From the NCBI RefSeq assembly GCF_001457655.1, contig NZ_LN831035.1:868001-932000 (forward strand): DNA of 64,000 bases, in the 5' to 3' direction. The DNA is from Haemophilus influenzae. GTDB taxonomy: Bacteria; Pseudomonadota; Gammaproteobacteria; Enterobacterales; Pasteurellaceae. The position numbers and the translations under genes are program-made. Shown here in pieces: positions 10,661 to 11,701 of this stretch; the stretch's first letter is position 1, and each line of letters starts with the position of its first letter. Below the pieces are notes generated by a model. The model was not told the origin of the DNA, did not search any database, and saw nothing but the letters and a program-made list of their open reading frames with translations.

Positions 10661-11701
10661 TTATTTTACTTCAACAACGATATCGGATTCTGATTTAGGT
10701 TTCAATTTACCCACTTCATATAAATCAATGCCAGTATCTTTGGCTATTTCAATTATAGTTTGAACGCTATTAGGCTCAACAGCCACTAATAAACCACCTG
10801 ATGTTTGAGGATCGCACAAAATCGCTTTTTGTTCTTCCGTTAATGCGCCAACTTTATGTCCATAACTTTCAAAATTACGCCCTGTTCCACCGGGTACGCA
10901 ACCTTGAGCAATATAATCTTTTACTCCGTCCAAGGTTTTAATTTTGTCCGAAAAAACTACCGCACTTAGATTTGAACCTTCACAGATTTCAATTAAATGG
11001 CCAAGTAAACCAAATCCAGTGACATCCGTCATTGCTGTGACGCCATCCACTTGGGAAAATTGACTGCCAATAGAATTCATTTGGCACATAGCGGCAGTGG
11101 CTAAACCTTGATGTTCTGGCTTAAGTTTTCCTTTTTTCTCCGCCGTCGTCAAAATACCAATACCAAGCGGTTTTGTCATATAAAGCTTACAACCTGATTT
11201 TGCAGAAGCATTACGTTTTACTTTTTCAGTGTCAATCACACCTGTCACGGCTAAACCAAAAATAGGTTCAGGCGAATCAATGGAATGTCCACCCGCCAAA
11301 GCAATACCCGCTTGATGGCAAGCAAAACGACCACCATCAACAATTTTCTGTGCAACTTCTGCAGGTAATACATTGGTTGGAAAACCTAAAATAGCGATTC
11401 CCATAATCGGCTTACCGCCCATAGCAAAAATGTCACTAATGGCATTGGTCGCGGCAATTCGTCCAAAATCAAAAGGATCATCTACAATCGGCATAAAAAA
11501 GTCTGTGGTACTGATAATTGCAGTTCCATTACCAAGATCATACACCGCCGCATCGTCTGCAGTTTCATTGCCAACGAGCAAATTTGGATCATAAAATTTT
11601 TCCAGTTCTGAATGTAAAATTGTCCCTAACACCTTAGGCGAAATTTTACAGCCTCAACCTGCACCATGGCTGTATTGCGTCAGCCGAATTTTTTCTTCCA
11701 T
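10661..11701 (-). CDS. selD: selenide, water dikinase, a selenocysteine-containing SelD
   Basis: SelD makes selenophosphate from selenide and ATP, the selenium donor for selenocysteine tRNA. The true start is the ATG at 11701 ([15 protein letters not shown]). The reading frame then meets UGA at 11654-11656 and continues [10 protein letters not shown] without a shift. The UGA occupies residue 16, the catalytic position that is Cys17 in E. coli SelD (GAGCGCK). It is therefore Sec, not a stop, and the enzyme (346 aa) needs its own product to be made. A SECIS-like hairpin follows directly. Glycine-rich ATP-site segments ([41 protein letters not shown]) are intact. Translation starting at the GTG of 11632 would give a truncated enzyme lacking the active-site residue. 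Confidence 0.93.
11613..11650 (-). promoter_or_regulatory. bacterial SECIS-like hairpin in selD
   Basis: On the minus strand the hairpin starts three bases after the UGA. The outer stem pairs TGTAAAATT (11642-11650 on the plus strand as AATTTTACA) with AATTTTACA (11613-11621). A 3x3 internal loop follows, then the inner stem CCTAA/TTAGG closing a GGTG tetraloop (11630-11633). Bacterial SECIS elements sit in this place, with a short apical stem and a G-rich loop bound by SelB. Confidence 0.75.

Follow-up and report, generated by a model that had tools for sequence, protein, structure and literature searches.

A selenocysteine codon in the selD gene of Haemophilus influenzae and the possible transfer of a UGA and hairpin segment between SelD lineages

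The selD gene and its in-frame UGA

The window, a stretch of 64,000 nucleotides at positions 868001-932000 of an H. influenzae genome (G000) that consists of one contig, carries on its minus strand the selD gene for selenide water dikinase, or selenophosphate synthetase (10661..11701). The reading frame runs from an ATG (11699..11701), with an AAGG about 10 nt upstream, to a TAA ending at position 10661, and its 347 codons include a single UGA, which is codon 16 (11654..11656). Translated with UGA as selenocysteine (Sec), the product has 346 residues with Sec at residue 16 and gives full-length matches to the SelD equivalog models (NF002098, residues 2-345, 585 bits against a cut-off of 299; TIGR00476, 444 bits against a cut-off of 125). 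A Pfam search finds two AIRS domains.

The product aligns without gaps to the structure 3u0o, which we take to be the SelD of E. coli, and the UGA residue 16 lies opposite Cys17, presumably the catalytic residue. The active-site motif HGAG(C/U)GCK is present as SHGAGUGCK, where U is the UGA codon. A first-pass annotation, made from the sequence alone, had proposed that the frame passes from the ATG at 11701 through the UGA into the conserved domain without a shift and that the UGA takes the place of the catalytic cysteine. Translation and the gap-free alignment bear out the former, and the latter agrees with the register of the UGA, which matches Cys17 of 3u0o and the Cys of family homologues.

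For the comparison we used 140 genomes of the family, which represent 43 genera and are referred to by genus codes (g5, g13, g14, and so on). A SelD match at an E-value of 0.001 or better was found in 136 of them. Leaving out three weak partial matches (G111-G113) and two broken genes (G070 and G102) gave 131 genes, 130 of which were aligned. The alignment is free of gaps around the UGA codon, where TGA is found in 73 genes, TGT in 33, and TGC in 24, making 57 Cys genes.

If the UGA were a true stop codon, the gene would be broken or would give a shorter protein starting at a GTG (11630..11632, minus strand). A mechanical open reading frame does start at this GTG, and gene decay occurs nearby, in a genome with selB and tRNA-Sec below the cut-off and a selD gene lacking 13 codons (G063, described below). 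However, the GTG is located inside the apical loop of the hairpin described in the next section, and TGA occupies the same codon in 73 of the 130 aligned relatives, in which it is the sole stop inside the SelD match. The short gene was rejected because its product lacks the active-site motif, as the first-pass annotation had warned for automatic calls starting at 11632, and we regard a true stop as highly improbable.

The hairpin downstream of the UGA

A bacterial SECIS-type hairpin (11613..11650, minus strand) begins 3 nt (GGC) past the UGA. It is composed of a 9-bp lower stem (11650-11642 paired with 11621-11613), an internal loop of 3+3 nt, a 5-bp upper stem (11638-11634 paired with 11629-11625), and a GGUG loop (11633-11630), and the earlier description of a two-stem hairpin with a GGTG loop 3 nt after the UGA was exact. 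The computed fold recovers both stems and adds some pairs, within the internal loop and between UGAG and the 3' end. The sequence folds only moderately better than its shuffles (z = -2.9, with 2 of 200 shuffles as good), and among 5,000 random synonymous recodings 655 equal or exceed its stability, so that the single sequence alone proves little. Folding energy was dropped as sole proof of the hairpin, being nonsignificant against the synonymous draws.

The covariance model R1, built from 31 rows of UGA hairpins that include the window's own, finds the selD hairpin at 92.7 bits, followed by the next nonoverlapping match in the window at 8.7 bits. A search of the hairpin against Rfam gave no SECIS family match even at an E-value of 10, which reflects the coverage of Rfam rather than the function of the hairpin. 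R1 does not separate UGA and Cys genes cleanly: among the 25 Cys loci scored (of 57), one outside g14 reaches 68.7 bits.

The comparison across relatives shows the hairpin beyond chance. At codons 17 to 30, the mean pairwise difference at third positions, computed only from gene pairs that share the residue, is 0.167 for UGA genes versus 0.504 for Cys genes, while the control codons 64 to 85 give 0.441 and 0.472, respectively. The 73 UGA genes have standard pairs in 998 of 1,022 hairpin cells, the 57 Cys genes in 624 of 798, and the mean folding energy of codons 17 to 30 is -12.8 versus -6.5 kcal/mol. Over all 130 rows, the true structure pairs in 87% of the cells, compared with 22 to 49% for slid controls. 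With pairing more complete in the UGA genes and a threefold lower third-position diversity found only there, we conclude that the hairpin is selectively constrained in these genes only.

Columns 18 and 51, both third codon positions, hold U-A in 65 UGA genes, C-G in six (all from g5), U-G in one, and an unpaired combination in one, and they are unpaired in 10 of the 57 Cys genes. The change from U-A to C-G in the six g5 genes speaks for the hairpin. For covariation over the 130 rows (105 distinct), the controls are weak: a score as high as the observed one turns up in 26 of 500 shuffles, and as many doubly changed pairs in 490 of 500.

The hairpin could also be a mere by-product of a conserved protein sequence, and synonymous draws for the same peptide do often fold nearly as well. 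Yet third-position variation is threefold higher in the Cys relatives, which have similar residues, and five of codons 17 to 30 show no third-position difference at all among UGA genes with the same residue. At residue 26, whose codon supplies a G needed for upper-stem pairing, 66 of 73 UGA genes have Gly, whereas 50 of 57 Cys genes have Glu or Asp. A by-product of the peptide is therefore very hard to credit.

The selenocysteine gene set and its decay

The first-pass annotation had named the absence of selA, selB, or selC as grounds against its reading, and the genome of the window has selB (888.9 bits), selA (625.6 bits), and tRNA-Sec (73 bits), all above the family cut-offs. It also encodes a formate dehydrogenase, FdhA, with one in-frame UGA, at which the Rfam family SECIS_3 matches within fdhA with 76 bits (L135, 3908-3966, minus strand). 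With the UGA in register with Cys, the hairpin under constraint in UGA genes, and the Sec gene set present, selD almost certainly encodes a selenoprotein in which Sec is inserted at residue 16 by means of the hairpin.

Across the 140 genomes of the family, selB is found above the cut-off in 131, selA in 132, and tRNA-Sec in 132. All but one of the 73 UGA genomes have selB above the cut-off and tRNA-Sec above the gathering score, the exception being G063. The 57 Cys genomes also have selB and tRNA-Sec, with a selB match of 337 of 581 positions in G086 and one holding a TGA in G024, and Cys-SelD is therefore no sign of a loss of the Sec trait.

The genome of the window contains a single SelD match, and the selenouridine synthase gene mnmH/ybbB is above the cut-off in none of the 140 family genomes, seven of which have weak partial matches, so that the known use of the SelD product here is Sec-tRNA. 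Following known biochemistry, SelB carrying Sec-tRNA(Sec) would bind the hairpin just 3' of the UGA (11656-11654), and Sec would be inserted at position 16, where the active site of the E. coli enzyme has Cys. The predicted enzyme would yield selenophosphate, from which SelA would make the Sec-tRNA that both new SelD and formate dehydrogenase require, closing the loop. The self-dependent loop proposed by the first-pass annotation is supported in this way, as SelD would make the selenophosphate for the very Sec-tRNA that SelD itself requires. An autoregulation idea for SelD reportedly dates from 1996.

Such a loop raises the question of whether the UGA and the hairpin act mainly as a selenium-responsive switch, with translation stopping at codon 16 and no SelD being made without selenium. 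A switch would be logical for a single-copy SelD in need of its own product. However, it is compatible with Sec insertion as the main explanation, and a pool of enzyme would probably be inherited at cell division, and we consider switching unlikely to be the main role.

Some genomes appear to have lost parts of this system. G063, which is labelled as the same species, has selB and tRNA-Sec below the cut-off and only a trace of selA (E-value of 9.7e-4). Its selD gene keeps the UGA and the hairpin and has an in-frame loss of 13 codons in a conserved stretch (L010, G063:C1:964431-968429), and its fdhA gene contains one UGA plus a TAA. Decay of the Sec trait seems to be under way in this species.

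In G062, also labelled as the same species (L140, G062:C1:857000-865500), selA lies in two overlapping pieces, through early decay or misassembly, and selB and tRNA-Sec look whole. The selD gene of G070 (L138, G070:C10:42100-43800, 1240-1305) has the UGA, an intact hairpin with 89.6 bits, and a frame change in the middle of the gene. Despite the broken selD, for which an assembly error is possible, selA, selB, tRNA-Sec, and a UGA-containing fdhA are above their cut-offs in G070. These three genomes are consistent with a Sec trait that disappears as a whole after one of its parts has failed, three being a small number for such a pattern.

History of the Sec and Cys forms of SelD

An order-level search of 247 genomes, at least 19 of which belong to the family, gave 70 genomes outside the family with a strong SelD match (E-value below 1e-96), and only one of these 70, G161, has TGA. 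The hairpin region of this gene (L155, 1231-1293, minus strand) is of different sequence and scores 36.7 bits with R1. A record titled Pseudomonas stutzeri NCTC11607 (CABDVE010000001.1) contains a SelD that is 81% identical to that of the window, and the strain is probably mislabelled.

SelD trees were computed without codons 1 to 34, with 20 of the 70 strong matches from outside the family as outgroups, and the 73 UGA genes fall in several places. A single clade of the 73 UGA rows was rejected on a quick tree (p-AU 8.7e-5), and so was a single origin with 81 Sec or ex-Sec rows (the UGA rows with those of g5, g14, and g27) as one clade for codons 35 onward (p-AU 0.0076), where the groups tested were named post hoc, once a tree was known. 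Maximum-likelihood state reconstruction indicates a Cys ancestor of the family (probability of Sec below 0.001); since this method models each gain as a point event independent of the others, it was not used for counting gains. Parsimony on the careful tree gives three gains and two losses or, when regain is disallowed, one gain and 15 losses. The first quick tree had nested a UGA clade within Cys genera. This was discarded, as the likelihood rose by 33 when the 13 Cys rows were constrained to group and the Cys grouping was not rejected on the careful tree (p-AU 0.389), and the nesting is thus not used as evidence.

One clade, named clade B, includes 23 UGA rows, which come from six genera, and 13 Cys rows. 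As a stand-in for genome history, we used a SelB tree of 40 hand-picked genomes, mostly one or two per genus, although SelB may itself be exchanged. It keeps clade B together (16 of 16 rows, support 100/100). The SelD state requires 11 changes on the SelB tree, which is not an event count, against 13.6 for shuffled labels (196 of 2,000 shuffles as low), and three changes on the SelD tree pruned to the same 40 genomes (0 of 2,000 shuffles as low).

The UGA genes of clade B appear to be mosaic. In the following, column numbers equal codon numbers save for small indels late in the gene, and the comparison set on the Haemophilus side consists of 41 UGA rows, with g5, g14, and g27 set apart. Codons 17 to 48 of the clade B UGA genes group with the Sec genes of the Haemophilus side, and the remaining gene groups with the Cys sisters. 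The clade B UGA consensus equals the Haemophilus-side UGA genes against the Cys sisters at six sites within codons 26 to 48, and three of these sites (26, 27, and 30) lie in hairpin codons. The opposite pattern is absent before codon 56, and past codon 55 the sites stand 26 to 5 in favor of the Cys sisters.

A graft test, in which the 23 clade B UGA rows were moved to the base of the Haemophilus-side clade of 49 rows (46 UGA and 3 Cys), changes the log-likelihood by -5.4 for codons 1 to 15, +14.9 for codons 17 to 30, +17.8 for codons 31 to 48, -2.0 for codons 49 to 62, +1.8 for codons 63 to 100, and about -156 for codons 101 to 350. With the graft at a neighboring node, codons 31 to 62, which are outside the hairpin, reject the tree of the gene body (p-AU 9.6e-5, p-KH 0.013, IQ-TREE), and columns 95 to 350 reject the graft (p-AU 2.9e-31, IQ-TREE), these p-values being optimistic because the graft position is the best of 213. 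A fairer control is given by six other windows of 32 columns (up to column 254), for which the best graft gain is at most 1.55.

Recombination of a short segment with the UGA and the SECIS, not repeated codon conversion, would be the simplest account that fits these sequence comparisons. The main rival is convergence, in which Sec enzymes need the residues within codons 31 to 63 and no transfer took place. Ala48, present in 64 of 73 UGA genes versus 5 of 57 Cys genes, is as convergence would have it. However, the residues L33 and A48, which are linked to the segment, are absent from the UGA genes of g5 and g13 (M33 and K48), whose hairpin has one pair fewer, and the UGA outgroup G161 carries E33 and S48. 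L33 and A48 persist in the g14 Cys genes and in those of a single g27 genome, so the residues track descent better than Sec, and convergence seems to us somewhat unlikely. In g5 and g13, the gain may have been a separate one, or the piece transferred may have been shorter.

Four Cys genes of g14 (L057, L115, L120, and L122) have a SECIS-like hairpin and Gly26, in a genus that also has UGA members. Their hairpins score 72.8 to 80.2 bits with R1, and four UGA genes scored for comparison, which are themselves rows of the model, score 72.7 to 94.4 bits. The hairpins of the g14 Cys genes look like fossil SECIS elements left after a change from Sec to Cys, and the g14 Cys genes, like those of the g27 genome named above, look ex-Sec by sequence.

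Our proposal, to which we give an even chance, is that the Sec codon and its hairpin form a small transferable unit. A segment from about codon 17 to codons 48 to 63, with the UGA, the SECIS, and the residues G26, T27, Q30, L33, and A48, would have passed by homologous recombination from a lineage on the Haemophilus side to the ancestor of a different clade, whose Cys enzyme would have become a Sec enzyme in one step; g5 and g13 would perhaps represent a second gain, and the reversion to Cys in g14 would leave the hairpin for a while. If this transfer is true, the harmful intermediate of a UGA without a hairpin would have been avoided, which would help to explain the interleaved Sec and Cys forms in the family. 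The family is naturally competent. These relatives offer a testable case of how a functioning gene can acquire a stop codon, together with its RNA signal, in its active site.

An open-literature search did not find a partial-gene transfer of SelD, which is no proof of its being unpublished, and the clade B mosaic is the part that may be new. Sec in the SelD of H. influenzae and the general direction of SelD evolution are already known, and selD is a known case of an enzyme needing its own product, in which a mechanical open reading frame call shortens the gene. PMC1242214 tabulates SelD for both H. influenzae and H. ducreyi, and also formate dehydrogenase for the former. The older PMC1794560, in the part available, saw no Cys-to-Sec events in SelD, and the available part of PMC5322559 adds nothing on Cys/Sec conversion of SelD.

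Within the genome of the window, the fdhA SECIS and the selD hairpin are alike in lying at a UGA and in having GU in the apical loop, but they differ in stem sequence, and fdhA is matched by Rfam SECIS_3 whereas the selD hairpin has no Rfam SECIS family match. The Sec position of the H. influenzae SelD studied in 1999 is presumably the same as that of the window. That study, judged by its title (Lacourciere and Stadtman 1999, cited in PMC8538045), compared the Sec-containing H. influenzae SelD with the Cys enzyme of E. coli, so that Sec in the H. influenzae enzyme was already in print, and the first-pass annotation had given the use of Sec at this site as known for some bacterial SelD enzymes. 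Gene, Sec, and genus are the same, and at the level of this title no difference was found, so the gene of the window looks like a strain-level copy. For the Pasteurellales, the accessible part of PMC4561486 (2015) describes Cys-to-Sec conversion of SelD in the same gene family with the same Cys-outgroup pattern. It favors codon conversion over horizontal transfer, whereas codons 17 to 48 of the clade B UGA genes studied here differ in history from the gene body.
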